The notes under the pieces were generated by a model that saw only the letters and a program-made list of their open reading frames with translations, did not search any database and was not told the origin of the DNA. This document shows positions 4,523 to 21,000 of a DNA stretch of 21,000 bases, piece by piece. This DNA is from a virus. The translations under genes were made by a program, and so were the position numbers. The stretch spans positions 1 through 21,000 of the IMG/VR virus record IMGVR_UViG_3300042445_001071; one strand, written 5' to 3'. Numbering within the stretch: the stretch's first letter is position 1; each line of letters opens with the position of its first letter.

Positions 4523-5268
4523 GTTATAATGTGTCCATTGCTAGTTATAGTTTCAGTTACCTTAAATTCAGAATTGCCTGTATACGTTTGAGTCGTAATG
4601 ATAGCTTTTTCGATTGGACTTTCAATCGTATTGATATCTGCTCTAGCAATGTATTTGAATTTCTTAACAGGACCAAATAGATATCCTTTGATGACAAAAT
4701 CTAATTGCCATGTTTGAACTCTACGTGATTCGAAATCTCCCTCATAAGAATCGTCTGAAGTAACAGACAACAACTCAATCGGTACGTCCATGTTTAAGTT
4801 TATCTCAGGAACCATTTTCATAGTTACTGTGAAATCGGGTGTGAAGAATGGTACAATTTGTTCTACAATTTGTGTGCCATCTTCAGTATTTTTAACTAAA
4901 ACGTGCAATGAAAAATTAAAATCATATGGTACTGGAGAGTACATATAATCAAAATCTAATCCACCAGTGTTCATGCCACGTGATATCTTATGTGCTGTAT
5001 TAAGTTTTCTTTGTGGTGCATATGTCATGCTAGTGAATTCAAATCCAAGGCGTGGCAATGTAGCAGAAACCTCACGATTCAGCGTTGGATCAGAAAGAAC
5101 TCTCTGAATAAATTTTTGTTTTGGTCCGTATTCAATAGGCACATTAAGAGTTTGAATCTTTGTGCCTGCGCTATTAAATCTTTCGATTTGAATTTCGTTG
5201 AATAGATTACCAAACATAACCACGTAGCGTCTTAACGTTCCGTGATAAAAGTCGTGTCCGAACATCAT
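4519..5268 (-). CDS. 15: Tail terminator / proximal sheath stabiliser gp15
   Basis: The gp15 family caps the finished tail tube and sheath as a hexamer and provides the surface that joins the neck of the head. The protein has 249 residues (T4 gp15 has 272). The N-terminus FYHGTLRRYVVMFGNLFNEI parallels T4 gp15, which has FYNSSFRRYATLMGDLFSNI. QIVEQIVPFFTPDFTVTMK (about 133-151) matches the T4 segment QIVEQILPYFQPHFNTTM. Two adjacent ATG codons are possible (5268 or 5265). Family members start MFG, which favours the second, while spacing to AAGGA in the end of gp14 favours the first. The gene follows gp14 after one base and overlaps gp16 by four. Confidence 0.93.
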   Translation of the reverse strand: MMFGHDFYHGTLRRYVVMFGNLFNEIQIERFNSAGTKIQTLNVPIEYGPKQKFIQRVLSDPTLNREVSATLPRLGFEFTSMTYAPQRKLNTAHKISRGMNTGGLDFDYMYSPVPYDFNFSLHVLVKNTEDGTQIVEQIVPFFTPDFTVTMKMVPEINLNMDVPIELLSVTSDDSYEGDFESRRVQTWQLDFVIKGYLFGPVKKFKYIARADINTIESPIEKAIITTQTYTGNSEFKVTETITSNGHIIT

Positions 5269-5269
5269 A

Positions 5270-6082
5270 TTAGAAAGTCCTTGTCAATGAGAATGGGTTT
5301 TGTTCAGAGAAATCTAGAATATCATCATCGATAATTTCTTTTCCGATGTATTCGTTATCTGCGGCAACTTCGGCAGCAACAACAACATCAGCTTCGTTGA
5401 TAATGAGTGTGCCGTCTTCAAGCAATAGGAAGAATCCTTCTTCTTCGAGCATCTTTTCATTATTAGCAGTTGACATACTGTACTGAGTTTCAATGTCATC
5501 GATTGCACTAACGCCAGTATCAAGTCTTTCGCTAGAGTATTCTAATCTATCACATCTCATTTCGAATGTGTATAGTTTACCTAACTGGAAGAAGTTTTCA
5601 ATGTTTTCTGTGAACTTGATTTCATATATGTATCCAAGCATTGGTATCCAAATTAAATCGCCCTCTCTTGGTCTTAGAATCGCATCATAGTCGTATGATT
5701 GTTCATCTAATAATTCATTACCATCTTCTAACTTGTATGTGTATCCATACTCTGTCATTAGAAGAGGCTTGAGTGATTGTAAGAATCTTTTTTGTGCTAC
5801 AACGAATGTAATCGATTCGTCAATTTGCAATCCAAACTTAGATAGAAAATCTTCTTGTCCTTGAAAGCCATCAAAACTTTTAATGAACATTTCCATCTCT
5901 AATGCATCATCAAATAATACAGATGCATCTTCACCAAGAAGTCTGTCTAAATTTACGTGCGTTCTTGGAAGATAGTATCCATCAACACCATAAATCTTAA
6001 TTGATTCGATGATGAGGTCTTCGACAAGATTTTGCTCCTGTTTTACAGGAGTGTATTGATTGAAGAATCTATTACGTGCCAT
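5270..6082 (-). CDS. 14: Neck protein gp14
   Basis: The gp14 family forms, with gp13, the neck that seals the filled head and receives the tail. The protein has 270 residues (T4 gp14 has 256). The N-terminal part [20 protein letters not shown] (about 22-41) corresponds to T4 [40 protein letters not shown] (about 68-87) corresponds to T4 [20 protein letters not shown], and [10 protein letters not shown] to T4 KEGDLIYFPM. The C-terminal region (about 205-260) is rich in Glu and Asp and less conserved. It starts two bases after the gp13 stop and ends one base before gp15. Its ribosome-binding site is weak (TAGG), so coupling to gp13 is likely. Confidence 0.93.
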   Translation of the reverse strand: [270 protein letters not shown]

Positions 6083-6945: not shown

Positions 6946-7314
6946 ATGGAAAGACTTGAAGGTTTTGTGAAAAAAGGTTGGGGACACGAATTGATTTGGT
7001 GTACCAACGATAAATATTGTGGCAAGATGTTGTCATTTGATGCTGGTGCTAAATTCAGTATGCACTTCCACGCAGTCAAAGATGAGACTTGGTATGTGTT
7101 AAGTGGTCGATTTGTCGTGCAATACATCGACACAAAAGATGCATCAGTCAAAGACAGATACTTAGAAGTTGGAGACACATGGCACAATCCTCCTTTGTTG
7201 CCACATAGAATCATTTGTGTTGATGCGGGAACTATCATTGAAGTATCTACACCAGATAGCGTAGAAGATAATTATCGTGTTCTTCCGGGAGATAGTCAGG
7301 CTAAGGTGCTATAA
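6946..7314 (+). CDS. Small cupin protein (mannose-6-phosphate isomerase type II-like)
   Basis: This is a single-domain cupin of 122 residues, first gene of a plus-strand sugar operon. The N-terminus VKKGWGHELIW resembles the start of the cupin domain in type II mannose-6-phosphate isomerases and other sugar-processing cupins. The metal-binding pattern is visible: His40-x-His42, Glu47 and Gly54 form motif 1, and GDTWHNPPLLPHRI supplies His87 of motif 2. A metal-dependent isomerase or epimerase acting on a phosphosugar or nucleotide sugar is plausible, but the substrate cannot be read from the sequence. GAGG precedes the start. Its TAA shares a base with the ATG of the next gene (TAATG), so the two are translationally coupled. 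Confidence 0.8.
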   Translation: MERLEGFVKKGWGHELIWCTNDKYCGKMLSFDAGAKFSMHFHAVKDETWYVLSGRFVVQYIDTKDASVKDRYLEVGDTWHNPPLLPHRIICVDAGTIIEVSTPDSVEDNYRVLPGDSQAKVL

Positions 7315-8231
7315 TGATTTTAGTCACCGGCGGGTTTGGCTTCATTGGTTCGAATTTAATCAGAGCATTAAACGCAAGAGGCGTAACAGAAATTGTAGTC
7401 GTTGATGATTTGACTGACGGCAGTAAGATGATGAATTTGAATGAAACTACATTTAGTCAATATTATGATGTAGATGCATTCTTTGAGTCATTCACAGAAT
7501 GGAATGAAGTAAAATTTATTTTCCATGAAGGTGCAATTTCATCTACTAGAGAGATGAATGGCACTTTGATTATGAAACGTAACTATGACTTCTCAGAAAA
7601 ACTTTTAAAGAAAGCGTTTGAACATAAGATACCATTTCAATATGCTTCTAGCGCAAGTGTATATGGAAACATGCCACACAACTATCGTGTTCCAGAAACG
7701 TCTCCTATGTTTCCACAAACGCCTTATGCGTTTTCTAAATACTTGTTCGACAAAAAGATTAGTAAGCTAATGGAGTCTGAGTACTTCAGCAAATTTGAAT
7801 TTAATATTCAAGGCTTGAGATATTTTAATGTGTATGGACACAATGAAGATCATAAAGGCGATCAAGCAAGTCCAGTCACTAAGTTTACTAAGCAAGCAAG
7901 AGAAACTAAAAAAATAAAATTATTTGCTGGTTCTGAAGGTATGTTCAGAGATTTTGTTTTTGTTGAAGATGTTGTTCAAGCCAAATTAGAATTAGCATTC
8001 AGCAAAATGAGTAGTGGAATATTTAATCTAGGCACAGGTAATCCAGAATCTTTTGCTAGAGTTGCTGAAATCATTTCACAAAAAGAAAATGCTCAGATAG
8101 ATATTGTTCCGTTTCCAAAAGAATATGCAAACAAGTATCAGCATTGGACTTGTGCAGATTTGACTAAATTAAGAGAAGCTGGAATTAAAACACATTTCAG
8201 AAGTATAAACGAATATTTTAATATTGTATAG
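7314..8231 (+). CDS. hldD: ADP-L-glycero-D-manno-heptose-6-epimerase-like protein (HldD/RfaD type)
   Basis: This is an extended short-chain dehydrogenase of 305 residues (E. coli HldD has 310). The family converts ADP-D-glycero- to ADP-L-glycero-D-manno-heptose, the donor for the LPS inner core. The NAD(P)-binding TGGFGFIGSN (5-14) opens the Rossmann fold. IFHEGAISST (69-78) and YASSASVYGN (110-119) match HldD. The catalytic Tyr138-x-x-x-Lys142 is in PYAFSK. HKGDQAS (180-186) corresponds to the HldD segment with its second catalytic Lys. LRYFNVYG (168-175), RDFVFVEDV and GIFNLGTGNPESF are also HldD-like. All key residues seem present, so activity is likely. AAGGTG lies before the overlapping start. 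Exact sugar specificity is inferred from similarity; another nucleotide-sugar epimerase is the alternative. Confidence 0.85.
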   Translation: MILVTGGFGFIGSNLIRALNARGVTEIVVVDDLTDGSKMMNLNETTFSQYYDVDAFFESFTEWNEVKFIFHEGAISSTREMNGTLIMKRNYDFSEKLLKKAFEHKIPFQYASSASVYGNMPHNYRVPETSPMFPQTPYAFSKYLFDKKISKLMESEYFSKFEFNIQGLRYFNVYGHNEDHKGDQASPVTKFTKQARETKKIKLFAGSEGMFRDFVFVEDVVQAKLELAFSKMSSGIFNLGTGNPESFARVAEIISQKENAQIDIVPFPKEYANKYQHWTCADLTKLREAGIKTHFRSINEYFNIV

Positions 8232-8240
8232 GAGTTGATA

Positions 8241-8951
8241 ATGGGAAGATTTTCTGTAGATAGAAGCATGAATGTTGATGGACAGTTTCCATCGCCTACT
8301 ATGCCACAAACGCCACAGTATGGTACGCCATATGGACAACAAAACTATGGTGCGCCACCGCAACAAGGCATGATGCAACAGCAACCAAACTGGCCAACAT
8401 TCTTTCCCAAAGAAACAATTGGCATTGACAGAGGTGCAATTTTAAATGACACCAAACCGATTCTTAATACATCTGACATTGAAATACTTCCTGGTGCGTT
8501 AGATGCAATTCGCACGATTAGATTGAAGGGATATAAACTTGTAATCTTCTTCAACGAACCATTGATTAGTCAAGGCAAGTTATCTACACAAGCAGTAGAT
8601 GCTAATGTTCAGCAGTTAATGAATTATTTCGGGCAAGCTGGCATCTTTACAATTGATGGATTGTTGTATTCAACATCTAACATGAAAGAAGACTTATTTG
8701 CTATGCCAAACAATGGTATGATGAAACGTGCTGAGAATGAAATGAAAGTTGCATTCAAAGGCGGATACTTTGCAGGCAACAAGTTATACAATTTGAAAGC
8801 TGGTGACTCTGTACACGCAAAACCTATTCTAATTAAATCTCCAGGTTATGAAGACGCAGAAACTAAACTAGATACATTTGCAAATAAAGAGTTAAAAAAC
8901 AAAACAAAGACGTTTAACTCTCTACTAGATTTTGCAAATTCTCTCTCATAA
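8241..8951 (+). CDS. GmhB-like HAD protein, probably catalytically inactive, with Pro/Gln/Gly/Met-rich N-terminus
   Basis: The start is the ATG at 8241 (236 residues), six bases after AGGAG (8230-8234). An upstream TTG at 8235 in the same frame is too close to that site. Residues 1-52 are low-complexity, rich in Pro, Gln, Gly and Met. Residues 53-235 align without large gaps to heptose-1,7-bisphosphate phosphatase GmhB, with DRGAIL for DRDGVI, LVIFFNEPLISQGK for LVVVTNQSGIARGK, and YFAGNKL for YMVGDKL. The nucleophile Asp63 remains. The acid/base Asp is Gly65, motif II Thr is Phe104, motif III Lys is Met155, and motif IV Asp residues are Asn180 and Asn184. The zinc-binding Cys loop is absent. 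It is therefore unlikely to be a working phosphatase; a regulatory, binding or structural role is possible. Its location after hldD supports a heptose-pathway origin. Confidence 0.72.
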   Translation: MGRFSVDRSMNVDGQFPSPTMPQTPQYGTPYGQQNYGAPPQQGMMQQQPNWPTFFPKETIGIDRGAILNDTKPILNTSDIEILPGALDAIRTIRLKGYKLVIFFNEPLISQGKLSTQAVDANVQQLMNYFGQAGIFTIDGLLYSTSNMKEDLFAMPNNGMMKRAENEMKVAFKGGYFAGNKLYNLKAGDSVHAKPILIKSPGYEDAETKLDTFANKELKNKTKTFNSLLDFANSLS

Positions 8952-8978
8952 AAAAAGCACCTTTCGGTGCTTTTTTTT
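8950..8978. terminator. Bidirectional rho-independent terminator between convergent genes
   Basis: GCACC (8957-8961), loop TTTC and GGTGC (8966-8970) form a GC-rich stem, flanked by an A-run (8950-8956) and a T-run (8971-8978). It acts on both strands: it ends the cupin-hldD-HAD operon and the carbamoyltransferase transcript. Stop codons of both genes (8949-8951 and 8977-8979) touch it. Confidence 0.9.
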
Positions 8979-10749
8979 ACTCTTCAGTTGCTGTTTCTGT
9001 TTCAACTTCTTCAGCTTCAACTTTCTCAGTTGGATCGTCAATTGTTTTTTCAACAAGAACACCCAACTCAGGCAAGTAGATATACTTCAGTTTAGAACTG
9101 TAGATTGTAGTCAATGCATCTTGTAGCGTTTCAACTAAAGGATGACCAGCAAGATTGAATGAAGTGTTAAAGATAACTGGAACACCAGTAATGTCTTTGT
9201 ATGCTTTAATCAACTCATAGAAATGCTTGTTGTTCTCTTCAGAAACAGTTTGCACACGACAAGTATCATCAACGTGCGTAACACAAGGAATCTCACTCAC
9301 TTTGTCTGCGGCAACGTTAACTGCATACATCATAAATGGAGACTCTTCAAGTCCTGCCATGTCAAACCAATCATTAGCGTCCTCTAACAAACAAGAACCT
9401 GCAAATGGTCTAAACCATTCACGCCCTTTGACAATATTAACTTTGTCTTTACCATCAGGGTCTCTTGCATCATAAAGAATAGAACGATTGCCCAATGCAC
9501 GAGGACCAGCTTCAGAACGTCCTTGGAAGATTGTAACGATATTTCTATCAGCAATCAATTGTGCAACTTCTTCTTTAGTAGTAGGAGTTACTTTAATTGC
9601 TTCTTTGTTTGCATCTAAAACAAATTGAAGAAATTCTTTTGAATACTCTGGTCCATAATAGATGCTCTTCTGTGGACGAATAGTACTATCATTTTGTGAA
9701 GTGTGCCACGAAAGTTTTGCAACACCAATTGATGTTCCAGCATCATTTGCAACAGGCTCAACATAAATGTTTAGATGTGGAAAACGTTTTTTCAAGTAAT
9801 AATTCGTAACACAATTTAAACCATAGCCGCCAGCGATAACAACGTTTTCTGTTTCCGTAACTTGAACTGCATATTCGATATAATTGCCAAGCAATTCTTG
9901 AGTATCGTTTTGAATAGCCCACGCAAGATTCTTTTCTACGTCAGTCAATTTGCTTGGATCAGTATGCCACTCTTTAGGATCAGCATATTGTCTTAGATAT
10001 GGGAATCTTCCTTGATCGATGTATGCGCCTGCTGGATATGCAGGAATGAAAACATCTTTAGATCCTCTATTACCATTAAACAATTTAGGAATATTGTCAT
10101 CATACTTACCATATGGTGCAAGTCCCATTGTCTTGCCAGCTTCAATGAAACCAAATCCCAAATACTGAGATACTGCTTCATATGTTTTTGTGAGAGTTGT
10201 TGCTCCACCATCAAAGTCAAACACAGGCGTTTGAACTTTTGGTCCTGCATTGCTACCATATACTTTTTGCACTAAAGCAAATTTACCTGGATATTCACAA
10301 TGCCAAATAGATTCTGTTTCATAACCTTCTGCTACAAGTGTTTCATCTTTTTCATCAACTCTTTCTTTCTTGAGTGATCCAGCACCGTCTACGATAACAG
10401 CTATAGCTTTTTCAAAACCAGAATTATAAAATGCAGATGCCGCATGACCTAAGTGGTGCTGATCTCCGATTTTTTGAACTTTTACATTAGGATAAAATTT
10501 GCGAACAAGTGCAGAGTATGCATCTTCACCAGTCCAAGGAAGTTTATGCTCTTCTTGTCCAGTACCAGCAATGACAAGTTCATCAACGTGCCATTTGCTA
10601 ATAATGTCTAACATGCCTCTGAATGGATTACCATCATACTTAGCACGACTCAATCTTTCTTCTTCAACATAGTATACGACTTCACCATCAACTAGTAATG
10701 CCGCAGAACCATTGTGACCAGGATTGATACCTAAAATATTATAACTCAT
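8977..10749 (-). CDS. Carbamoyltransferase, NodU/CmcH family
   Basis: Members of this family transfer a carbamoyl group from carbamoyl phosphate, through a carbamoyl-adenylate intermediate, to a hydroxyl of a sugar or antibiotic. The 590-residue length is normal. The N-terminal Kae1-like domain shows LGINPGHNGSAALL (6-19), metal-binding HHLGHAASAFY (98-108), DGAG (121-124), MGLAPYG (208-214) and AGGYGLNC (306-313). The C-terminal domain has GRSEAGPRALGNRSIL (410-425), REWFRPFAGSCL (443-454) and VPVIFNTSFNLAGHPLVET (523-541). The last 20 or so residues are a Glu-rich acidic tail of unknown use. It starts one base after the upstream glycosyltransferase-like gene, with TAGGA as ribosome-binding site. 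Such genes occur in several T4-like aquatic phages. The acceptor cannot be read from the sequence; a surface sugar is the likeliest guess. Confidence 0.92.
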   Translation of the reverse strand: MSYNILGINPGHNGSAALLVDGEVVYYVEEERLSRAKYDGNPFRGMLDIISKWHVDELVIAGTGQEEHKLPWTGEDAYSALVRKFYPNVKVQKIGDQHHLGHAASAFYNSGFEKAIAVIVDGAGSLKKERVDEKDETLVAEGYETESIWHCEYPGKFALVQKVYGSNAGPKVQTPVFDFDGGATTLTKTYEAVSQYLGFGFIEAGKTMGLAPYGKYDDNIPKLFNGNRGSKDVFIPAYPAGAYIDQGRFPYLRQYADPKEWHTDPSKLTDVEKNLAWAIQNDTQELLGNYIEYAVQVTETENVVIAGGYGLNCVTNYYLKKRFPHLNIYVEPVANDAGTSIGVAKLSWHTSQNDSTIRPQKSIYYGPEYSKEFLQFVLDANKEAIKVTPTTKEEVAQLIADRNIVTIFQGRSEAGPRALGNRSILYDARDPDGKDKVNIVKGREWFRPFAGSCLLEDANDWFDMAGLEESPFMMYAVNVAADKVSEIPCVTHVDDTCRVQTVSEENNKHFYELIKAYKDITGVPVIFNTSFNLAGHPLVETLQDALTTIYSSKLKYIYLPELGVLVEKTIDDPTEKVEAEEVETETATEE

Positions 10750-10750
10750 A

Positions 10751-11689
10751 TTATTTTCCTACCTTTTTTTCTATATCTTTAACAATTGACATAAACAAAT
10801 CATCTACATCTTTATCAGACAAGTCCATGCACTTGTCATTATATCTATCCGCTAAGTGAGAGTCTAATCCTGAAATGCGAATTGGAGAATATTTCTTTTC
10901 AACTCCAGGCTTTTCGTAAATATTAAACCATTCTGGATATGATACATTCTTTGCGAATGTTGACCCGATAAAAACAGTTCCTGGTTTATCAAATGCTCTT
11001 GCCATGTGCTGACCAACAGAATCACAACCAACAAAATAATCGGCAGCCTCAATGACAGCAGACCATGATCTTAAGTCCATCTCAGGTTTAAATGTGAAAG
11101 CATCATCTGGCTGATGGAATGGTTTCTCTGCAAACAAAATAAGATTGTACTTTGTTGAAAGTTTTCTGACTAAACGCAAGTATGCATGTGAATCAAGACC
11201 TCTAGAAGAGTCATCAATAATGTCAGCACGATCAACTCTAGCACTTCTACCATAAGGCTGAATGATAAGTGTCTTGTCTTTTTTCTGTTGCATCTTTACA
11301 TCTGCAATCAAATTAGCCGCACTCTTTTCTTCTGCTTTGCTAGTGTACAACTTAAGTGGAGGTAAATCAGAATGGTCGTGTGTGCCATTGATTTCAATGT
11401 CGAACGCTTCCGACAGAGATACTTTTTGATTATAGTACTCTGGAACTTTGTATGGTTCTGGACTGATGTATTTGTCTGCGCCTTTAATGACTAGATCAAA
11501 GATACCTTTTGTATCTGCACTAAATGTAATGTCTTGAAGCAGTTGATTGCCCCAATATAGATTGTCCCAACCCATGACAATAATTTTTATGTCATCTTCT
11601 GGTTTTTTGTTTCTAACTAATTTTTCAAGTGCTGGTAGTGCCGCAATTGCTCTGCCGGCACCGCCATCAATATAAATGATTTTTTTCAT
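10751..11689 (-). CDS. Glycosyltransferase family 9-like protein (heptosyltransferase-like)
   Basis: The protein has 312 residues. The N-terminus MKKIIYIDGGAGRAIAALPA followed by LEKL resembles the GT9 opening, where a glycine-rich loop precedes a Pro-Ala-Leu helix. In the C-terminal half, LIIQPYGRSA (141-150) begins the second Rossmann domain. AADYFVGCDSVGQHMARAFD (215-234) then TVFIGST matches the GT9 nucleotide-sugar site, usually written D-[ST]-G-x-x-H-x-A. WaaC/WaaF members of this family add heptose from ADP-heptose to LPS, which fits the nearby HldD and GmhB-like genes. Overall similarity is modest and the substrate is inferred. It is the first gene of a two-gene transcript with the carbamoyltransferase, behind a strong sigma70-like promoter. 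Confidence 0.7.
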   Translation of the reverse strand: MKKIIYIDGGAGRAIAALPALEKLVRNKKPEDDIKIIVMGWDNLYWGNQLLQDITFSADTKGIFDLVIKGADKYISPEPYKVPEYYNQKVSLSEAFDIEINGTHDHSDLPPLKLYTSKAEEKSAANLIADVKMQQKKDKTLIIQPYGRSARVDRADIIDDSSRGLDSHAYLRLVRKLSTKYNLILFAEKPFHQPDDAFTFKPEMDLRSWSAVIEAADYFVGCDSVGQHMARAFDKPGTVFIGSTFAKNVSYPEWFNIYEKPGVEKKYSPIRISGLDSHLADRYNDKCMDLSDKDVDDLFMSIVKDIEKKVGK

Positions 11690-11773: not shown

Positions 11774-12190
11774 TTATGTTGGCCAGTCAAGTTCCGGTAA
11801 TTCAGATTCAATTTCGGAGAACAATCTGATTTTTTCTCTGTTACCATCATTCACATCATCGATGATTTGGTACAATGCAGACCAAGTGCTATCTCTAGCA
11901 GTAGCGGCATATGTACCCTCATTCTTATACTTATCAACTGACGAATTTATATATGTCGTTGCAGAATTGATATTTTCATATCCTTTTGTTTGTGCAAATG
12001 CATCCAATCTTCTTTGTGTTTCTATTTCAAGATATGGAAGCATAGGCAAATCAAGTACACCATCAATATAGGTGTACTCGAATGCTCTACTTTCAACAAA
12101 ATCTGATGGAGAAGGAACCCATTGCTGAGGTCCTTCATATCCATCAAACGCTGTTGCTATGACACGATTATTTTCTACAATAAGTTTCAT
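11774..12190 (-). CDS. Putative tail-fibre assembly chaperone-like protein
   Basis: The protein has 138 residues. I do not recognise it with certainty. The N-terminal part (1-50) is short and strand-rich. The rest is helical, with TYINSSVDKYKNEGTYAATA (79-98) and RDSTWSALYQIID, and ends with LPELDWP. A helical segment with Y-x-N-S-x-x-x-K-x-K, then R-D-x-x-W, then a Pro-rich WP end, is common in small proteins encoded directly after phage tail fibres and annotated as fibre assembly chaperones. Its position immediately downstream of the 1389-residue adhesin, six bases after the stop, supports that role. No clear Shine-Dalgarno sequence is seen, so it may be translated by coupling. It is the last gene before the sugar island. 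Confidence 0.55.
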   Translation of the reverse strand: MKLIVENNRVIATAFDGYEGPQQWVPSPSDFVESRAFEYTYIDGVLDLPMLPYLEIETQRRLDAFAQTKGYENINSATTYINSSVDKYKNEGTYAATARDSTWSALYQIIDDVNDGNREKIRLFSEIESELPELDWPT

Positions 12191-12195
12191 ATTAG

Positions 12196-15100
12196 TTACA
12201 GGTTATAGAATGTGTCAACTTTACTAAACATCAAGCAACATGTTGTGCCTGATGGTCCAGGACATGCATTGCCGTTTGCGTAAAATCCAAATGAACCGGC
12301 CGCTACTACACATCTAAATGGAATCAAGTCGAAATACGCAATGTGTATACTGTTTTGAGTGTTTAATGTTCCTCCAGAACCTCTTGTTTGTGTTGCATAT
12401 AAAATTGGATAACAAACATCGTTCACAACAAAGATACAGCATTGGCAAGACGAGTTGAGTTGGTAGCCACCTCTTTTAGTGTCATCAAGTGCCATATACG
12501 CAAGGCCAAGACTGCACAATGTGCTGACACCAGAAGATAAACAATGTCCGAGAAGATGGTTAGCATTCCAGAAAGTTTTGCATGGCAAATGACAAAATGC
12601 ATCGCCAGGACCGAAACCAGGAACGTAAGAAGTGAAAAAGTCATACCACAGACAATTCGAACCAGACTGATTACACGTTCTCGTAAGTCTATCATATGGT
12701 CTTATGTAACAACATGTGTTTTGGCTGTTACAGCAACATCCTGATATCTCAGGGTAACATGCACACATAGAGTGAAAATACGTTGCCGTTGCACATTGAA
12801 ACACGTTGTTAGACACCGCTGTTGGTCGCATGTGATTGCCAAAACATCTACATCCACTAAACGCCGAACAGCAATATCTGTTTGGTGTTTGAGCATTAGG
12901 GAAGCAATTATCATAGAAATTAATACAAAGTGCCTGTTGGCGTGTGAATGTTGGTCGAACAACATCACAAATTGGCATACAACTGATGATACTGCTACAG
13001 TAAGCGCCACACACACAGCATAACACAAGATTACATTGCGGACAGCAAGGTGAGCATGGAACAGACAAACAACAGTTTGGTCCAAAACATTCACATGCTT
13101 GATTCCAGCAATATGGTCCTTCCAAACACAAATCTCGGTGAGGTGTTATAATATAACAGAAGTTAGACGTGCCATCAAATGTTGACATGTCTTGACTTGT
13201 CGTTGGTGGAGTATAAACTCCATAAAAATAACATGGCGTCCAACCAGAGTACGAAAAGTAATGCGTCTGATAAGTTATACCCACAGCATTTGCAACACCA
13301 GGATTGCATCTGCAATCAAATCCGTTCATGTTTGGTCTAAGTGGTCCACAGCAGTCACCGAACTGGCATTGACGATAATCACCAAAATCTCCTGCACACC
13401 ATGCACTCTTGTCGGATTTAAATACATTTGTTCCGCCAGGAGAAGTATAACAACTTAAGTAAGACGAACTGACGCATTGATGGCCAGTGCCGATTTGACA
13501 TCCGAAGGTCGGCACCACATTAGGAAATACTGGTATAGAATATACTGAATTTGACGAACCATAAAAATTAAGCGTCTTCAATCCAGCTTGATCGGAAGTT
13601 TGAGGAGTGCTGAACGGCAATGGAATACCAATTCCATAGCAACCGCAAGCCACCTGACAGCAGAAACAACGGCCGCTACAATAATTACAATAGTGTACTA
13701 ACGTGCAGATGGGCCCGTTTAGGCCAGTTGAAAATGGTGTTTGATGAAACATAGAATCAAAACAACACACAGTTGTACCAACAACACCATCTGTATTAAA
13801 TACCGTTGCGTGACCTTGCTGACCCATAGCATTTTGACATCCGTAGTATCCTTCTACTGATTGTCTAGAGAATCCAGTTGCGGACGCACCAGTTGCGTAG
13901 TCAGAACAAGAATAACACGCACACATAGGCATGATTGGTGGGTGGGCACCAGCTAACACAAGTCTACATCCAATGATTTTAGCATTGGCAAAACTAAAGT
14001 TTGTCCAGCTACTTGATGAACCACCTAATGCATCACATAAAATTTCAGAACCTTGCATTGTGTTATTTGCCTGAGAGCCATAGCACCAAACATTCACACC
14101 AGCAGAACTTGAGAAGTATCCGCAACCATATGGAAGACCTTCTGCTCTCATGTTACAGCAGTTGTAGTAATAGCAGTTAAGTGGAGCCAAAACAGCGCAA
14201 GAACTCTGACAGAATCCACCCGCAGTACCACCATACAACATCGCAAATGATCTCCATCCAACAAGGAATGCTTTGGAGTCAGCAGTATTTGCTGAATTTT
14301 TGTAGATCAATGTGTGAGATGTGCCAGCTGGTGCCTGCATAAGTCTACCACATGTGCCTTGGTTGTCTGTGCAAGCGCCATATGGAGAGAAACAATAACA
14401 ATATGGAACAACTATGCCTCCGTGTCCTTGGAAGTAATCCTCGTAACATGTACCAAAAATACAAGATGTGATTCCTGGTAATGATTTACATGCGACACAG
14501 CATGTTTGTGGCGTGAAACATATTACATTTGCTGGCTGACATGTAACAAAGTTGTCACAGCTAACTCTGACGCAATCACCAACTCTACCAAATGAGAACA
14601 TCATAGCATACTGACCAGGAACCTGGCAACATGCTTGATTACATACTCCTAATGTATTTTGATATCCATCAGTTCTCATTGGACTTACGCCGGCAAAGTA
14701 CTCATCGCAGAATGCAATCGTGTAGAATGGTAATGGAACGTCTGGGAAGTGAGACCATGTGTCGTAATTTGGTTGGCTGTTTGCAGTATGAATGCATACT
14801 CTTGAGTGACCAGTTTTGAAATAAGCTGGAGCGCAGACACCACTAGCACCAAAACCAGTAGCACAATCAGAAATAATCCAACCAGTATAGATGTAGTTGC
14901 AACATGCAAAACTACTTAAACCATATCTAATTGTGAATTGACAGCAACAGTTTCCACAAAGTTGTTGGAAAATACATGCAGGAATTGGAACACACAAACG
15001 ATTGAAACTAGCCGCATTATCTGTTGTATAATACAATGAGCAGTTCAATGTCACACCAGAAGTGTTTGCTGTAGTTCTATCGATAGAACAGCAATAGCAA

Positions 15101-16365
15101 CTTCTGAAACACGCAATCATACTACTCTGATTCCAGAAGCCTGGAGAGATTAGGGTGAATCTACAGTCTGCATGAGTAATAACATTATAGTTACACTTGA
15201 TGAATCGTCCTAGATATTCAATTTCAGTATTTGAAAGTTGGCACCCATTTGCAATTGTCATTGGACAAATTCTTTGACCATTACAATCTGGTCTGTGCAT
15301 CATAGGTAAATTGGTGTTGTTTGCCTGAATTACGCCGCCACGGGCAATAATATCAGCTTTTACCAAGCGTTGGGATGTGCATGTTCCCGCACATGCAGGC
15401 GCACCGTGGCCACAATAAGCGTAGCAATTGTCACGACATTCACATAAAAAGAAAAGACATGATCTTTGTCTAAAAGAACCTAATGAATTAACTTGATCCA
15501 TGAAATATGTGTTTCCAGATATCAAAAATGTAGTCATACATGGAACACCATAGCAGGAACCATACCAGCAAACAAAATTACAACTTGTTAGGCCAACACC
15601 ACATGCACCTTTGTTAATAACTTCATTGGTCGCACAAGGATTTTGAGTGTATGAACATGCGGCAGCCGCAGTATTCCATGCAACACAATTTAGTGCTGGA
15701 GTACACATTACACATGCAACATCTCTATTAAGAGTTTCTAAGAATACTGAATTTGCAAATGCAGTAGCAATTGGAGCACCACTCAAAAGACAACTTCCGC
15801 CACAAGTTAGACAAGAAAATGCGGTCGCATCTCCTAACCAGTATGCTGGACGACCTGGCGTTCCAACAGCTTGTGTGACTGCACATGCAGAACCTCTGAA
15901 ACATGCAGACACGGTGGCATTACACGTTAACAACTTTGCAATTTCTGTGTTTGATTGAACAGCAGTATTCAAAAATGCTGTGCAAGAACCAAAAGCACAA
16001 TTTATCATTGTTGGTGAATTACCAAAATGCGTGAACGCACATGTTGCTTCTGGTGTCGAAAAACTCATCATGTAATTGTAATAGCAACTAGAACCCAACA
16101 TATCATCTCTACTGTTAGGTGTTTGATAGAATATGCATGATCCAACTGGATTTGCAAACAATGCAGTCATCGCATTGTTAGATCGAACTAGAGTATGCGC
16201 CGCATTGTTTGATTGCGCCAACGCACATGAATATTGTGGAGAACTTAGCACCTGTGTAACATCGGCTAATCGTCCACCATCTGTTAGCAAAGTATCGAGG
16301 CAGGAAGGCGTTGTATTTCCTGTCGATATTGCATTTAAAACTCGTATACCTCTTACCACTGGCAT
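12196..16365 (-). CDS. Giant cysteine-rich putative tail fibre / adhesin (1389 aa)
   Basis: I do not recognise this as a named protein. My hand count gives about 146 cysteines in 1389 residues (about 10.5%), spread through nearly the whole length, often as CC or CCC or as C-x-C (for example CYCC and NCCCQ). Elsewhere the window's proteins have few cysteines. Residues 42-81 and 117-168 show 10-11-residue repeats of the form S-x-x-A-x-x-x-L/V, the pattern known from many long phage tail fibres. The rest is rich in Gly, Ser, Asn, Tyr and Phe, as in beta-structured adhesins. No signal peptide or membrane segment is apparent. Two tandem perfect late promoters and GGGGAG precede the ATG. A 221-residue fibre lies upstream and a chaperone-like gene downstream. 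Host attachment is inferred; the cysteines could form disulfides or bind metal. Confidence 0.7.
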   Translation of the reverse strand: MPVVRGIRVLNAISTGNTTPSCLDTLLTDGGRLADVTQVLSSPQYSCALAQSNNAAHTLVRSNNAMTALFANPVGSCIFYQTPNSRDDMLGSSCYYNYMMSFSTPEATCAFTHFGNSPTMINCAFGSCTAFLNTAVQSNTEIAKLLTCNATVSACFRGSACAVTQAVGTPGRPAYWLGDATAFSCLTCGGSCLLSGAPIATAFANSVFLETLNRDVACVMCTPALNCVAWNTAAAACSYTQNPCATNEVINKGACGVGLTSCNFVCWYGSCYGVPCMTTFLISGNTYFMDQVNSLGSFRQRSCLFFLCECRDNCYAYCGHGAPACAGTCTSQRLVKADIIARGGVIQANNTNLPMMHRPDCNGQRICPMTIANGCQLSNTEIEYLGRFIKCNYNVITHADCRFTLISPGFWNQSSMIACFRSCYCCSIDRTTANTSGVTLNCSLYYTTDNAASFNRLCVPIPACIFQQLCGNCCCQFTIRYGLSSFACCNYIYTGWIISDCATGFGASGVCAPAYFKTGHSRVCIHTANSQPNYDTWSHFPDVPLPFYTIAFCDEYFAGVSPMRTDGYQNTLGVCNQACCQVPGQYAMMFSFGRVGDCVRVSCDNFVTCQPANVICFTPQTCCVACKSLPGITSCIFGTCYEDYFQGHGGIVVPYCYCFSPYGACTDNQGTCGRLMQAPAGTSHTLIYKNSANTADSKAFLVGWRSFAMLYGGTAGGFCQSSCAVLAPLNCYYYNCCNMRAEGLPYGCGYFSSSAGVNVWCYGSQANNTMQGSEILCDALGGSSSSWTNFSFANAKIIGCRLVLAGAHPPIMPMCACYSCSDYATGASATGFSRQSVEGYYGCQNAMGQQGHATVFNTDGVVGTTVCCFDSMFHQTPFSTGLNGPICTLVHYCNYCSGRCFCCQVACGCYGIGIPLPFSTPQTSDQAGLKTLNFYGSSNSVYSIPVFPNVVPTFGCQIGTGHQCVSSSYLSCYTSPGGTNVFKSDKSAWCAGDFGDYRQCQFGDCCGPLRPNMNGFDCRCNPGVANAVGITYQTHYFSYSGWTPCYFYGVYTPPTTSQDMSTFDGTSNFCYIITPHRDLCLEGPYCWNQACECFGPNCCLSVPCSPCCPQCNLVLCCVCGAYCSSIISCMPICDVVRPTFTRQQALCINFYDNCFPNAQTPNRYCCSAFSGCRCFGNHMRPTAVSNNVFQCATATYFHSMCACYPEISGCCCNSQNTCCYIRPYDRLTRTCNQSGSNCLWYDFFTSYVPGFGPGDAFCHLPCKTFWNANHLLGHCLSSGVSTLCSLGLAYMALDDTKRGGYQLNSSCQCCIFVVNDVCYPILYATQTRGSGGTLNTQNSIHIAYFDLIPFRCVVAAGSFGFYANGNACPGPSGTTCCLMFSKVDTFYNL
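15616..16245 (-). repeat. Short 10-11-residue repeats in the N-terminal part of the giant adhesin
   Basis: This covers residues about 41-250 of the cysteine-rich protein. Clear units begin at Ser42, Ser52, Ser62 and Asn72 with exact ten-residue spacing (SPQYSCALAQ, SNNAAHTLVR, SNNAMTALFA, NPVGSCIFYQ). Further units begin at Ser117, Ser127, Ser138, Cys148 and Ser159. Later units (after about 195) are degenerate. They resemble fibre repeats of the SSTAMxAVAA kind. Confidence 0.6.
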
Positions 16366-16396: not shown

Positions 16397-16404
16397 TATT
16401 TATA
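16397..16404 (-). promoter_or_regulatory. T4-type late promoter, proximal, for the giant adhesin
   Basis: Minus strand TATAAATA, an exact late octamer, 31 bases before the adhesin ATG. GGGGAG in the leader serves as ribosome-binding site. Confidence 0.75.
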
Positions 16405-16410
16405 GTCATC

Positions 16411-16418
16411 TATTTATA
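16411..16418 (-). promoter_or_regulatory. T4-type late promoter, distal, for the giant adhesin
   Basis: A second exact TATAAATA lies 14 bases upstream of the first. It overlaps the end of the preceding gene, whose TAA stop (16414-16416) is inside the octamer. Tandem late octamers suggest strong or redundant expression. Confidence 0.7.
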
Positions 16419-17079
16419 CCTTCTGAACATGAATTTTCCACTTGCAAACACTTCCGTAGCAGTATCCGCATATGCATGGAGAACATTGACCACACACAGA
16501 TGGTCCACCCCAAGCCTGAATGCACCATGCCGGATTCGTATATTTCATATACACAGTTCCGGCATAATCTCCGCCACATATTGGATATATTTCTACAACA
16601 TCGCTTTGAGTTGCACCAGGAAGATTAACACATTGATATGCATAAGTGTTTATCGAAACACCAGCAAGTTGATTTACAACTTCAAGGCTATAGTTGCCTC
16701 CATTTGGTTCAAATGCATTGAACGCTTCAATCGTGTCCCATGTTGGTGCAGTAAGAAGCCAAGCACCTGTTGCTGTTCTGAACGATGTTTCATCGTCATC
16801 TGGTTCATCTGAACCCAAGATAAATGAAAAGTATCCTAAATCTTGTACAAATGCTTGTGATCCGTTTGTTGGTGTTGTGCTTCTAAGATCATTTCTGCTA
16901 TCATACGCATAATTGGTAATAGCATCAACCGCACCCCAAACAGACGGCTGTCCTGTGCCCTGAGACTTTAAAACTTGTCCTACTGTGCCTTGCCCACCAG
17001 TAGCTAATGAAATAGAGCAAACATTTGCTAGATTTCTACTGTCATCAACGACTACGCAACTTCCGACTTTAATTGCCAT
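16414..17079 (-). CDS. Tail-fibre-like protein with cysteine-rich C-terminus (221 aa)
   Basis: The N-terminus MAIKVGSCVVVDDSRNLANV resembles the common aquatic-phage fibre start MAIKVGGTTVIDDSRNL, and GTVGQVLKSQGTGQPSVWG (31-49) is the recurring G-x-x-G-Q-V-L-x-S-x-G-x-G module of fibres. The middle (about 50-180) is a Gly/Asn/Thr-rich globular segment I cannot assign. About 35 residues near the end carry seven cysteines in NPAWCIQAWGGP, SVCGQCSPCICG and YCYGSVCKWK. The protein has about eleven cysteines in all. AAGGAAT precedes the start, and a perfect late promoter overlaps the end of the previous gene. Lying between an S74 fibre and the cysteine-rich giant, it is probably a fibre or fibre-tip component. 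The shared cysteine theme suggests the two work or assemble together, but this is inference. Confidence 0.65.
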   Translation of the reverse strand: MAIKVGSCVVVDDSRNLANVCSISLATGGQGTVGQVLKSQGTGQPSVWGAVDAITNYAYDSRNDLRSTTPTNGSQAFVQDLGYFSFILGSDEPDDDETSFRTATGAWLLTAPTWDTIEAFNAFEPNGGNYSLEVVNQLAGVSINTYAYQCVNLPGATQSDVVEIYPICGGDYAGTVYMKYTNPAWCIQAWGGPSVCGQCSPCICGYCYGSVCKWKIHVQKV

Positions 17080-17097: not shown

Positions 17098-18360
17098 TTA
17101 TTTATAAGACTTGAGTTGACGAATCTCTTCTTTCAAGTCTTTAATTCCTTCTACTAAGAAGGCAATCAAATTTAAATAATTAATACCCTTTGTTCCGTCG
17201 GGACGAACTCTGACAACTTCAGGAAGAACTGATTCGACTTGTTGTGCTGACAGTCCATACGATTTTTCTTTTGTGTCTATCCAATTGAATCCGAAACCTT
17301 CTAGTTGTGAAATGATATCTAATGGATTTACAATTGGTGTGAAGTTTTCTTTTAGTGTAACGTCTGAAGAAGAGTTATAATCAGTTGACGTTAACAATCC
17401 AGAACTTGGATTGAAAGTTAGTTTTGACGATGATGTGTTTGCACCAACAATCGAACCACTTGTCACACTAGTGAATACTGGATAGAATGTTGCATCTGTC
17501 GTAGTATTGTTTGTGATTGAAACTGCGGCCGATGCCCATGTAGAATCGCCACGCAAGAATGTCGTAGCGTCTGCTGTGCCTGAACTTGCGAGTCTATCTG
17601 TTGCTACAAGTCCGCTAGATAAGTTGCTTGCATTTAGTGTAGTTAAACTTGCACCAGAACCAGAGAACAATGTTGCAGTAACCGTTCCGGTTGATGTGAT
17701 AGCACCGGAGTTTAATGTGCCGATTTGAAGGTTTGCGAATTCAAATCCATTCCCATTAATGTCAATCGTGGTTGTCGGCTCAACATTATAGTTTTGAAAT
17801 AATTTCCATTTGCCATCTGTTGCATCTCTGAAGATACCAGAGTGTACATTTGCGCCATTATTGTATCCACCGATAAAACCAATATCAACAAGGTCAGATG
17901 GATTTAAGTGCGCCAACTGTAAAATGTTGTCTTCAATATTAACTACGGTTGTGCTAATTACTGTGTTCGAACCTAAAAATGTAACGTTTCCATTAAAAAC
18001 TGAATCGCCGACAACGTTTAAGTCTGTTCCAACATATAGTTTTTTAGCAATGCCAACGCCACCAGCAACAGTAAGTGTGCCAGTAGTAGTAGAACTTGCG
18101 TCTGTTGTTCCTCCAAGTGCTAATATGTCAGTACTTGTATTATATGTAAATGCGGAATCGTCTGTTAATTGTCCAGCAGTACCACCAAGTACAACTCGAC
18201 CAGAAGTTAAGTTATTTGCAGTTACTGTTCCACCAATTATAGTGGTTGCGTTTATGACGCCCGAACCACCGGATATCCCATTGACTGCGGTGATAACTTC
18301 GTTAACGGTTGTTCTAAACTCATTAAACGTATTCGCTAAGACTACTGTGTTAATTGTCAT
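17098..18360 (-). CDS. Tail fibre with C-terminal S74 intramolecular chaperone
   Basis: The protein has 420 residues. The N-terminus MTINTVVLANTFNEFRTTVN begins a short helix. Residues 30-320 are repetitive Gly/Thr/Asn/Val sequence with S-T-T-T-G-x-L-x-V-x-G-G-V-G-I (89-103), typical of trimeric beta-fibres. Residues about 330-420 are an S74-type chaperone domain: SDVTLKENFTPI (332-343), GFGFNWIDTKEKSYGLSAQQ (355-374), and a C-terminal coiled coil (FLVEGIKDLKEEIRQLK). In this family the chaperone folds the trimer then cuts itself off. Ser332 and Lys337 stand in the S-D-x-x-x-K spacing of the known catalytic pair, so cleavage just before Ser332 is predicted. The gene follows the small coiled-coil gene after two bases, and only a weak AGAAG ribosome-binding site is seen. 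Confidence 0.88.
   Translation of the reverse strand: MTINTVVLANTFNEFRTTVNEVITAVNGISGGSGVINATTIIGGTVTANNLTSGRVVLGGTAGQLTDDSAFTYNTSTDILALGGTTDASSTTTGTLTVAGGVGIAKKLYVGTDLNVVGDSVFNGNVTFLGSNTVISTTVVNIEDNILQLAHLNPSDLVDIGFIGGYNNGANVHSGIFRDATDGKWKLFQNYNVEPTTTIDINGNGFEFANLQIGTLNSGAITSTGTVTATLFSGSGASLTTLNASNLSSGLVATDRLASSGTADATTFLRGDSTWASAAVSITNNTTTDATFYPVFTSVTSGSIVGANTSSSKLTFNPSSGLLTSTDYNSSSDVTLKENFTPIVNPLDIISQLEGFGFNWIDTKEKSYGLSAQQVESVLPEVVRVRPDGTKGINYLNLIAFLVEGIKDLKEEIRQLKSYK
17099..17106 (-). promoter_or_regulatory. T4-type late promoter for the 221-aa fibre gene (TATAAATA)
   Basis: Exact late octamer on the minus strand, 20 bases upstream of the ATG at 17079. It encodes the last Tyr and Lys and the start of the TAA stop of the S74 fibre gene, so promoter and coding end are superimposed. 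The small distance to the ATG predicts a very short leader containing AAGGAAT. Confidence 0.7.
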
Positions 18361-18362
18361 GT

Positions 18363-18611
18363 TTATCTTCTATTATTAGTTATTTGCAACAACATGCTTT
18401 TGATTTCAGTCAAATCTGACTTAATTTGGACCACTTCAGCCCTTAGAATATTTATATCGTTGGCATTCTTATTTAGTTCGGAGAACTTACGTTTCTGAAT
18501 TTTATATTTCAGTAACGAATTGTTATCCGTATTTAGTACTGCCTTCGAGTTGATATCTCTTTCAGTAAAGCCTGCGATAGGCTCTAGCAATTCAATTTTT
18601 TGTTGTATCAT
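18363..18611 (-). CDS. Small coiled-coil protein (82 aa), probable virion component
   Basis: I do not recognise a family. The N-terminal part MIQQKIELLEPIAGFTERDI is followed by a lysine-rich stretch. Residues 53-78 (INILRAEVVQIKSDLTEIKS then MLLQI) have hydrophobic residues in heptad spacing, predicting a coiled coil. There is no signal peptide or membrane segment. It overlaps the large upstream structural gene by four bases (ATGA) and is followed after two bases by the S74 fibre. That tight packing suggests a co-translated set whose products meet in the baseplate or fibre. It could be a trimerisation or attachment helix for a fibre; this is inference. Confidence 0.65.
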   Translation of the reverse strand: MIQQKIELLEPIAGFTERDINSKAVLNTDNNSLLKYKIQKRKFSELNKNANDINILRAEVVQIKSDLTEIKSMLLQITNNRR

Positions 18612-21000
18612 GCTAGTGCCATCACTCTCAAATCTTTGACTTTCGGTGCTGTTGCATTATTGCTAGACAAGAACACAATCTTAACAGCAAAGTATTTGAA
18701 GCCTTCAAATGTTCTGCCATCAGGTGTCGTATATGCAACGGTGTCGTTTAGTACTTTAAATACGTCTTGTTCAACTGCGTTTCCAGCCCATACGCTATCT
18801 ACTGTCAAGAATGTATTGTTTGCAATTGTTGCAACCACACGTTCTGCTCTGTTTGTACCAACGGCAATTGTATCACCAATTCTCAAGTCTTCTGTGAATC
18901 TTGTTGATGTACCTTCGACATTCGTATTTGCGCTGTAGATGTTAACAGTACCAGAAAGCAATGTTGCACCACCACTCTTTCTAGCTGTAGGAACAACATA
19001 TTTTTCTTCTTTGTAAATGTCAGGGTCTTGTGTGAACGTTTCTGTTCCGACAAGCGACATTTCAGTATAGAATTTATCGTTGAATATGTCAGTATCGTTT
19101 TCGTTCAAAATCTTGTAGTAGACTTTGATACTTGTACCAGCTGGACGATTAACATTCAAGTATGTAACTAAATCTGTAGCTTCAAAACCATCATTCAATG
19201 TGACTTGACGAGTAATGTAACGTGAAGTCGATGCGTACGGTCCAGATGGATGTTCTTCGTTTCTAACTGTGACTGTTTGTGCAACGGCATTGGATGTACT
19301 GAAAGCAGTCGCAACTGTCAAATGCGTGTTATTTGTAACAGCATTAACTAATCTGTAGTCATCTCCAAACTTAGCATATTCACCAACTGTAACTTGACTT
19401 GTAAATGCAGTACCAGAACCAACAACAACTGTTCCACTTGAAGAGTACGTTACAGTACCAGTCAAAGTGTTACTTGTGATGTTATTGATTTCAGTTTCTT
19501 CAAATACAATTCGAGTTCTTTCGTCATCAACGTATGGAGAAATATATTCGTCTGTTGTACTCAGCGTTGCCTTTAATGTAACAGATTTGAAATTGTTTGA
19601 CGTTTCGGCAGAAGATGTAGAAACTTGTTGCATTGATGCCAATACAATTCGTTCAAAATTCTTAATTGTAATGTAATCACTAACGGCATATGTGCTATCT
19701 GCATAACGCAATTCATACACGATGTTAGTGTCGGCAAGAATTTGATCTTCAATCATTGGCGTCAATACATTGTATGGAATTGCAGTAGATGCGTTGACGT
19801 TGTTCCAATAAGCAACTTTTGTTGCAGTAGTATTGAATTTTGCAACTTTCAACTTGTACTTAACATCCAAGTTTTGTCTCGCAGACCATGTGTAGTCGTT
19901 AGAAGATGTGAACAAAACACCAGATGCTGGCGCTTTGTCAATTCTAGTTTCAACGTCAGAGTTTGTGATATCGATACCACCCAACTCAGCAACCCAAATT
20001 GTATATTCTAAGTCGTTATTGTCTGGCTTGATAGTGAAACAGTATTCATTACCAGGAGTCAAATATACTGGACTTGGGAATGTGAATGTTGTTGCAGTAC
20101 TTGCGCTTGCGCTAACATTGATTTGAGAATTCTCAAGTCGTGCAACTTCACCACCAATAATCTTTCTTGTTGGATATCCATTGAACATCTCACGAATTTC
20201 AACTGTGACACCACGTGTGGTATCAGAAGATTTAGTCTTGAAAAACAAATCGATAGAACTAACGTAACATCCGTTTCTATACTTAGCCGAGTCAATAGTG
20301 AAACTCTGTGAAACAGGATCCCAATTTTGAGGACGTGGCGGTTCAGGAATAACAAGTGTTCTAGAAACCTCTTGGAATAAAACGTCACGAACTTGTCTAC
20401 CAACAGATTCTCTTAATGTAGTATCATTAAACGAAATGCTTGTTGGGCGAGTGTTAATTGTTAACGTACTCTTAACTTGCGTAATGCCTTGTGCATAGAT
20501 TGAAGTTTTAGCGTATGTTGTAGTTGTTCCGTCAGAATTAGTAGAACTATCTGTCAAAACAAATTCACGTTGTCCTGTGTAGAATGTGTTAGCAGGAACT
20601 CTAAACTTCACATATGCTTTACCATTGTTCACACGTAAAGAACCAGCAGATACTGTTCTCCACTTAGATGAATCAGTCGGTAACAAATCATCTTTATCTA
20701 ACGAATCAAACAAATCTTGAATTGTTGTATTTCCAACTAATTCGAATTGTGTACAGTTTGCAGTAACGTCAATGCCGTCAAAGAACGCATACAATGGAGA
20801 ATTTGTTTTAAGCCCGTTTGCAACAATGATGAAGTCTCTTGTACGCATTCTCTTAGAGATTGATACGTCAACGACTCTATCACCCGTAAGTTTTTGTTCT
20901 GCACCAGGAGTTACTTTAACAAGTTGCTTATATGCTTCTTGTGTGGTTTGCGTAATCGCTCTAGTAACATCAAACTGCTGTCCGTTAATTGTTTGTCTAG
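18608..21000 (-). CDS. Large virion structural protein, probable baseplate/fibre-associated (partial, N-terminus beyond window)
   Basis: The frame is open from the right edge to the TGA at 18608-18610. An ATG at 20848 is internal, because about 50 codons without a stop lie before it (including KVTPGAEQKLTGDRVVDVSI). At least 796 residues are present. The segment GDRVVDVSISKRMRTRDFII then NGLKTNSPLYAFFDGIDVT is like a repeated motif of large structural proteins in aquatic T4-like phages, where a conserved MR-x-R is followed by L-x-P-N-x-x-x-Y-x-F-F-D. Later, NGYPTRKIIGGEVARLENSQ and YLTPGNEYCFTIKPDNNDLE suggest beta-sandwich, carbohydrate-binding-like folds. Two copies of a 65-70-residue Gly/Thr/Val module (counted from 20848: residues 463-532 and 632-702) resemble the sheath insert. 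It overlaps the small coiled-coil gene by four bases. The exact baseplate role is unknown. Confidence 0.65.
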   Translation of the reverse strand, partial: RQTINGQQFDVTRAITQTTQEAYKQLVKVTPGAEQKLTGDRVVDVSISKRMRTRDFIIVANGLKTNSPLYAFFDGIDVTANCTQFELVGNTTIQDLFDSLDKDDLLPTDSSKWRTVSAGSLRVNNGKAYVKFRVPANTFYTGQREFVLTDSSTNSDGTTTTYAKTSIYAQGITQVKSTLTINTRPTSISFNDTTLRESVGRQVRDVLFQEVSRTLVIPEPPRPQNWDPVSQSFTIDSAKYRNGCYVSSIDLFFKTKSSDTTRGVTVEIREMFNGYPTRKIIGGEVARLENSQINVSASASTATTFTFPSPVYLTPGNEYCFTIKPDNNDLEYTIWVAELGGIDITNSDVETRIDKAPASGVLFTSSNDYTWSARQNLDVKYKLKVAKFNTTATKVAYWNNVNASTAIPYNVLTPMIEDQILADTNIVYELRYADSTYAVSDYITIKNFERIVLASMQQVSTSSAETSNNFKSVTLKATLSTTDEYISPYVDDERTRIVFEETEINNITSNTLTGTVTYSSSGTVVVGSGTAFTSQVTVGEYAKFGDDYRLVNAVTNNTHLTVATAFSTSNAVAQTVTVRNEEHPSGPYASTSRYITRQVTLNDGFEATDLVTYLNVNRPAGTSIKVYYKILNENDTDIFNDKFYTEMSLVGTETFTQDPDIYKEEKYVVPTARKSGGATLLSGTVNIYSANTNVEGTSTRFTEDLRIGDTIAVGTNRAERVVATIANNTFLTVDSVWAGNAVEQDVFKVLNDTVAYTTPDGRTFEGFKYFAVKIVFLSSNNATAPKVKDLRVMALA
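18743..18955 (-). repeat. Gly/Thr/Val module, copy 2, in the large structural protein
   Basis: Encodes SGTVNIYSANTNVEGTSTRF, then a segment with RIGDTIAVG, VVATIANNTFLTV and AVEQDVFKV. It shares with copy 1 and the sheath insert the order G-T-x-T-x-F, V/I-G-D/E, V-x-x-I/V-x-x-N-T-x-L-T. A domain duplication is inferred from the ordered motifs. Confidence 0.55.
19253..19462 (-). repeat. Gly/Thr/Val module, copy 1, in the large structural protein
   Basis: Encodes TGTVTYSSSGTVVVGSGTAF, then VTVGEYAKFG, VNAVTNNTHLTV and AVAQTVTVRNEE. The motif order is the same as in copy 2 and in the sheath insert at 1771-1968. Confidence 0.55.

Follow-up and report, generated by a model that had tools for sequence, protein, structure and literature searches.

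Cysteine-dense tail-fibre proteins of aquatic T4-like phages are linked to a GT9-like glycosyltransferase gene

TibC and AAH are GT-B heptosyltransferases that act on repetitive surface adhesins and carry a four-cysteine iron finger; TibC uses ADP-heptose to attach heptose at many serine residues of adhesins (PMC4358343). For the cyanophages P-SSM2, S-SM2 and S-SSM7, Sullivan et al. (2010) described lipopolysaccharide (LPS) clusters with heptose genes of unknown function (T4-GC 304, 305, 307 and 308) and asked whether phage LPS genes are functional or 'stuffer DNA'; cysteine is not mentioned in the main text of that paper (PMC3037559). Here we describe a gene for a cysteine-dense protein, followed by a gene for a GT9-like glycosyltransferase, within 21,000 nucleotides of viral DNA (positions 1 to 21,000 of IMG/VR record IMGVR_UViG_3300042445_001071, hereafter the window). 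Sequence evidence supports a role for the protein as a tail fibre with which a T4-like aquatic phage binds its receptor. Its likeness to the receptor-binding protein of the Clostridioides difficile phage CDHS-1 (PDB 7qlr) and to ASSTAMxAV-repeat fibres would lie in helical repeats and an N-terminal domain, shared by way of low-cysteine fibres.

The open reading frame (ORF) occupies positions 12196-16365 on the minus strand and encodes, from an ATG start, 1389 residues, of which 146 (10.5%) are cysteine. A preliminary description made from the letters alone had given about 146, which is exact, and the cysteines do extend over the whole length, making up 5.0% of residues 1-139 and 8.6-15.8% of the remaining stretches. 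The other long proteins of the window are poor in cysteine (0-1.2%), as had been stated, with the exception of the neighbour at 16414-17079 (11/221, 5.0%). In control marine T4-like loci the 589 ORFs of at least 150 residues average 0.66% cysteine with a maximum of 4.1%, and none of the approximately 1,200 ORFs in complete control genomes reaches 6%. The many CC, CCC and CxC groups noted earlier are present, but the 19 CC pairs are about what composition alone gives (15.3, standard deviation 3.5, in shuffled sequences). Certain relatives show a clearer CC excess (e.g. 26 against 14 expected); across the window protein and its relatives only CC tends to exceed random expectation, while CxC and CxxC do not. 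Phenylalanine, tyrosine and tryptophan together account for about 12% of residues.

The expression signals and intact frame of the preliminary description were borne out. A GGGGAG ribosome-binding site can be read directly ahead of the ATG, and two T4-type late-promoter boxes (TATAAATA) occupy 16397-16404 and 16411-16418 on the minus strand; the window contains five such boxes against 1.2 expected. That the ORF arose as an assembly or frameshift artefact has a negligible probability and is refuted by several observations. It is also present on six further contigs, its third codon positions vary most (0.36-0.49 versus 0.19-0.35), and the concern that low-cysteine homologues might be alignable only through a frameshift does not hold, since eleven low-cysteine fibres align to its N-terminus in the annotated frame. 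A frameshift origin is thereby excluded. An alternative genetic code was also rejected; other genes of the window show normal cysteine content.

The reading of the protein as a fibre or adhesin stands on its N-terminal domain, its position and its divergence. A hidden Markov model (HMM) built from low-cysteine fibres matches residues 1-55 (E ~1e-11 versus shuffled controls). These fibres belong to a three-gene cassette that recurs among unrelated phages (an EPNGGN protein, an MP.VRA.R.LNA fibre and an MKLI..NR protein), and the window contains the fibre N-terminal domain with the flanking small genes (16414-17079 and 11774-12190) in the same order. Compared with the low-cysteine cassette fibres, at 0-1% cysteine, the window protein is approximately 2-5 times longer and has 10.5%, and homology to them is undetectable past about residue 150. 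Residues 1 to approximately 345 (15331-16365, minus strand) comprise the cassette domain followed by degenerate ASSTAM-type repeats, a predicted alpha-solenoid. The ASSTAMTAV repeats of a low-cysteine cassette fibre show sequence similarity to the receptor-binding protein of CDHS-1 (7qlr, E 3e-7). AlphaFold2 renders the window N-terminus as a series of short helices, with a predicted local distance difference test (pLDDT) value of about 70 for residues 1-90 and lower afterwards, and the top Foldseek match of this model is 7qlr (E 7e-3, low TM-score); a 7qlr-like helical-repeat fold is therefore suggestive only. The whole protein has no family match in PHROGs, Pfam or NCBIfam and, being without any Pfam match, is not of the Gly_rich_2 (PF21722) tip type. 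A PDB profile search with it found nothing, and tblastn against 50,697 phage records came up empty whether the query was the full protein, its first 220 residues, L043 or L064. Homologues of TerL and of a contractile tail sheath in the window agree with the T4-like assignment.

Relatives were found on six IMG/VR contigs, five of them full-length and one ended by the contig edge. The five are 59-64% identical to the window protein over aligned positions and contain 136-148 cysteines. Across all six full-length sequences 71 cysteine columns are invariant (71 of the 146 in the window protein), while the variable columns exchange mostly with Ser, Ala, Thr, Asn and Gly; cysteine is among the better conserved residues of the alignment, with a mean identity of 0.74. 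Between the window and the near-identical phage of contig L010 the fibre is the most diverged gene, at 62% identity overall and 51% in the C-terminal half, against 91-99.6% in the flanking genes, most of the neighbours standing at 92-99.6%. Because the fastest divergence is combined with a place in a known cassette, a receptor-binding fibre protein is indicated, which would presumably be located in the virion.

The GT9-like (heptosyltransferase-like) glycosyltransferase is encoded at 10751-11689 on the minus strand (phrog_8954, E 2.7e-87; PF01075; TIGR02201, E 1.8e-4), and its gene is 95-97% identical among phages whose cysteine-dense fibres share only 28-62%. From a scan with the GT9 alignment the best 80 loci were taken, and the 67 with at least 3 kb upstream are counted. 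With a cysteine-rich ORF defined as at least 6% cysteine within 5 kb upstream, a threshold chosen after the first cases were known, 43/67 loci are positive; by a local-density criterion (a 120-residue stretch with at least 7.5% cysteine) 56/67 are. All 64 cysteine-rich ORFs (64/64) lie upstream of GT9 on the same strand. Where GT9 is at least 56% identical to that of the window, 32 of 33 loci have such an ORF. The gene order is cysteine-dense fibre, GT9-like, NodU-type, with ADP-heptose genes as well in fully read loci. A control scan with a neck gene found cysteine-rich ORFs in 0/74 GT9-negative and 3/6 GT9-positive loci; these loci do not always extend to the fibre genes, and complete genomes therefore matter. 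GT9-negative complete genomes peak at 5.7% cysteine, leaving a wide gap, with intermediates of 4.7-5.8% at some GT9 loci. The 107 cysteine-dense proteins collected (8-13% cysteine) fall into 33 BLAST clusters, and cysteine-richness switches at least 6-8 times on the GT9 tree. Among cassette fibres, the low-cysteine ones have no GT9 in view and the cysteine-dense ones do, except those of L043 (an 8.2-kb fragment) and L006 (a fragment cut short), both without GT9 in view. Because the linkage to one enzyme holds across unrelated sequences, the purpose of the cysteines would be bound up with that enzyme and independent of fold, and we infer that enzyme and cysteines are functionally coupled. The survey of cysteine content in related phages that had been proposed thus shows that such fibres recur as a class among aquatic T4-like phages and are not a one-off.

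The cyanophages P-SSM2, S-SSM7, S-CAM1, S-CAM3 and Sf-FS3, together with three single-cell marine viruses, harbor 1-3 proteins of 7.6-11.6% cysteine no more than 4 kb from GT9. PSSM2_304, PSSM2_306, SSSM7_114-116 and their counterparts in S-CAM1, S-CAM3 and Sf-FS3 are, like the window protein, cysteine-dense (~8-12%) and encoded immediately upstream of the genes for a GT9-like enzyme and NodU; those of P-SSM2 and S-SSM7 are also downstream of a tail-fibre gene. They differ in being 260-356 residues long, in belonging to a Gly-rich WTVPSGV...WGAGGG type in P-SSM2 and S-SSM7 (S-SSM7_114 is a Gly_rich_2 protein, with PF21722 above cut-off), and in bearing no resemblance to the window protein in sequence. 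Cysteine-rich proteins are jointly absent with GT9 from 11 of 11 complete GT9-negative T4-like genomes (nine marine phages, S-CRM01 and S-SM2). GT9-positive cyanophages also encode HldE, GmhA, cupin and epimerase genes. S-SM2 (NC_015279, 151438-159348) has kept these genes without having GT9 or NodU, and none of its ORFs exceeds 3.5% cysteine, a natural dissociation of the heptose cluster from the cysteine-rich proteins. The window phage has the same heptose genes as the clusters of Sullivan et al., yet it is GT9/NodU, not the heptose genes alone, that predict cysteine-dense fibres. Aeromonas HJ05 and Vibrio SBP1 contain weak GT9 homologues, but no cysteine-rich ORF and no heptose genes. An extra minus-strand ORF of S-CAM3 at 55005 (7.7% cysteine), far from GT9, is probably not a gene.

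A word-matching search that covered few subscription papers found no published description of the cysteine-rich fibre class or of its coupling to GT9/NodU, nor, within the same scope, was the class described in the literature on cyanophage heptose clusters, S-glycosylating heptosyltransferases or phage-encoded virion glycosylation. The class is apparently widespread and undescribed, and its members sit unremarked in long-cultured model cyanophages. One neighbouring enzyme predicts 8-13% cysteine in unrelated fibres, whereas the fibres of the control set are nearly cysteine-free. The coupling gives a testable role to phage LPS gene clusters of open function (PMC3037559). Either virions would be subject to a new post-translational modification or fibres would put disulfides to a new use, and each would bear on host recognition by abundant aquatic phages. 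The linkage suggests chemical decoration or locking of tail-fibre tips by the phages themselves.

The fibre part of the preliminary interpretation is upheld, while the disulfide, metal and thiol chemistries it offered were guesses, none of them confirmed. Linkage to a glycosyltransferase module points first to modification of the cysteines. The best explanation, held tentatively and at somewhat under an even chance, is that the GT9/NodU/heptose module acts on the phage's own cysteine-dense fibre and places an S-linked sugar on its cysteines. The conserved N-terminal domain and helical repeats would attach the fibre, leaving the long, fast-diverging cysteine-dense part distal. The GT9-like enzyme would act directly on this part, adding a sugar from ADP-heptose, probably heptose, to many cysteines (S-glycosylation); NodU may carbamoylate the fibre-linked sugar, and the outcome would be a decorated tip that might act in host recognition or in protection of the tip. 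Taken by itself, S-glycosylation is the leading mechanism, possible rather than probable. The wider proposal, in which NodU carbamoylation accompanies phage S-glycosylation and cysteine density is selected independently of fold, with unrelated adhesins converging on about 10% cysteine, is doubtful. The LPS of marine cyanobacteria is not known to contain heptose, whereas proteobacterial hosts make it. This would fit a need for the donor independent of host LPS. TibC and AAH differ in their serine acceptor, autotransporter substrate and four-cysteine iron finger, against 2 cysteines in total in the window enzyme. Identification of the latter as a TibC homologue was rejected, as no sequence homology was detected and the iron finger is absent. 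The N-terminal motif of the window enzyme reads GGAGR, where known heptosyltransferases carry the catalytic Asp.

Several observations weigh against modification of the cysteines by this enzyme. The 71 invariant cysteines of 146 fit disulfides or metal sites better than exchangeable acceptors, and sugars on CCC runs would be crowded; a mixture of structural core cysteines and modified surface cysteines is possible. Only 11 of 34 loci whose GT9 is 40-56% identical to the window's have a cysteine-rich ORF. No cysteine-dense stretch occurs within 5 kb upstream at L275, L286, L289, L291, L307, L315, L317, L319 and L322, and L295 and L309 have cysteine-poor, Ser/Thr-rich fibres directly upstream of GT9, while the cysteine-dense cassette fibre of L043 stands without GT9 on its fragment. 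The compared genomes are kin, and the counts are not independent events. Judged by its profile matches, the enzyme bears GT9-like as a label only, below curated cut-offs: PF01075 gives E 1.2e-3 and 18.6 bits against a gathering score of 22, which is not reached, and 6/8 members of the enzyme family match it at E<=0.1. A PDB profile search with the enzyme found no solved relative. AlphaFold2 runs on both halves of the fibre gave no usable model past residue 345, with pLDDT 20-45 in the cysteine-rich part.

The invariant cysteines and their 0.74 mean identity also favour a disulfide-hardened fibre, whose cysteines would remain reduced while inside the host cytoplasm and, once lysis has occurred, pair into a dense network of disulfides, giving a rigid, protease-resistant tip. 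GT9, NodU and the heptose genes would then alter host LPS, e.g. against re-adsorption, in keeping with the LPS biosynthesis earlier proposed for the P-SSM2, S-SM2 and S-SSM7 clusters (PMC3037559), and receptor-modifying and receptor-binding genes would merely travel together. Taken jointly this is a serious possibility, about as probable as one of three equal choices. However, it leaves unexplained why cysteine density tracks GT9 across unrelated clusters and is absent from GT9-negative phages, including S-SM2 with its heptose cluster; odd cysteine counts are frequent (145, 137, 29, 25, 31, 35), and half of the cysteine positions show turnover. Thiolate clusters binding iron, zinc or copper, either stabilising the fold or contacting metal-bearing receptors, would likewise accommodate the dense CC, CCC and CxC groups and their invariant subsets. 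We consider this unlikely, as metal-binding spacing is not recurrent (CC alone tends above random), the protein is rich in aromatic residues, and the GT9 link is left unexplained. Metallothioneins have very high cysteine, few aromatics and CxC spacing; with 10.5% cysteine, about 12% aromatics and near-random CxC, the window protein is not metallothionein-like.

Slightly more unlikely still is that the GT9-like enzyme glycosylates Ser/Thr of the fibre, the cysteines being structural. TibC modifies serine (PMC4358343), and the fibres of L295 and L309 would suit such an enzyme, but what is constant among close GT9 homologues is cysteine density. Covalent attachment of the phage, through mixed disulfides between free cysteines and proteins of the host surface, would agree with the fast-evolving, receptor-binding-like position. 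It is very improbable, since virions with some 140 free thiols should clump in oxic water and since it does not account for the GT9 link; nothing else speaks specifically against it.

Next to the GT9-like gene the window encodes a NodU/Nol-like carbamoyltransferase (8977-10749, minus strand; phrog_1601, E 2.6e-161; PF16861 and PF02543 above cut-off). On the plus strand are a GmhB-like heptose-bisphosphate phosphatase (8241-8951; NF006506, E 2e-15, below the equivalog cut-off), which carries some 55 extra N-terminal residues rich in Met, Pro and Gln, a feature also found in relatives, an ADP-glyceromanno-heptose 6-epimerase (HldD; 7314-8231; TIGR02197, 302.5 bits, cut-off 274.6), and a small cupin (6946-7314), which cyanophages also carry alongside their heptose genes under the annotation cysteine dioxygenase. 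In the window-type records L002 and L064, both fragments, homologues of HldE and GmhA were looked for and not found. On the minus strand, a small 138-residue cassette protein (11774-12190; MKLI.NNR..ATA.D.Y.GP) follows the fibre gene in many phages. The fibre-associated partner (16414-17079, minus strand) has its 11 cysteines mostly toward the C-terminus, and its relatives in L001, L002, L025 and L064 contain 5-6% cysteine. Beyond it is a tail fibre or baseplate-wedge-like protein with a C-terminal Peptidase_S74 chaperone domain (17098-18360, minus strand).

Elsewhere, the L043 cassette fibre (3696-5516; 607 residues, 11% cysteine) has Asp-box-like motifs (.NCG.[ST]W) and looks, from its sequence, as if it were a beta-propeller fibre loaded with cysteine; an Asp-box propeller-blade HMM from the low-cysteine L054/L056 proteins matched neither it nor the window protein. 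A 92-residue protein with 8.7% cysteine is located near GT9 in L286 (930-1205) and L289 (2584-2859), where there is no large cysteine-rich fibre. In L299 an ORF from 12767 (991 residues, 5.8% cysteine) is downstream of GT9, unlike the usual upstream place. At the distant GT9 loci L275, L286, L291, L315 and L322 the upstream genes resemble glycan-cluster enzymes, not fibres, and by eye include sulfotransferase-like LPRSGS proteins. Within the window, the tail sheath (529-2430, residues 149-217) and a 746-residue structural protein (18608-20848, residues 631-691) share one small domain, PHROG 1980/17834, which elsewhere is found in tail fibres and therefore appears to be a fibre-type insertion in the sheath.

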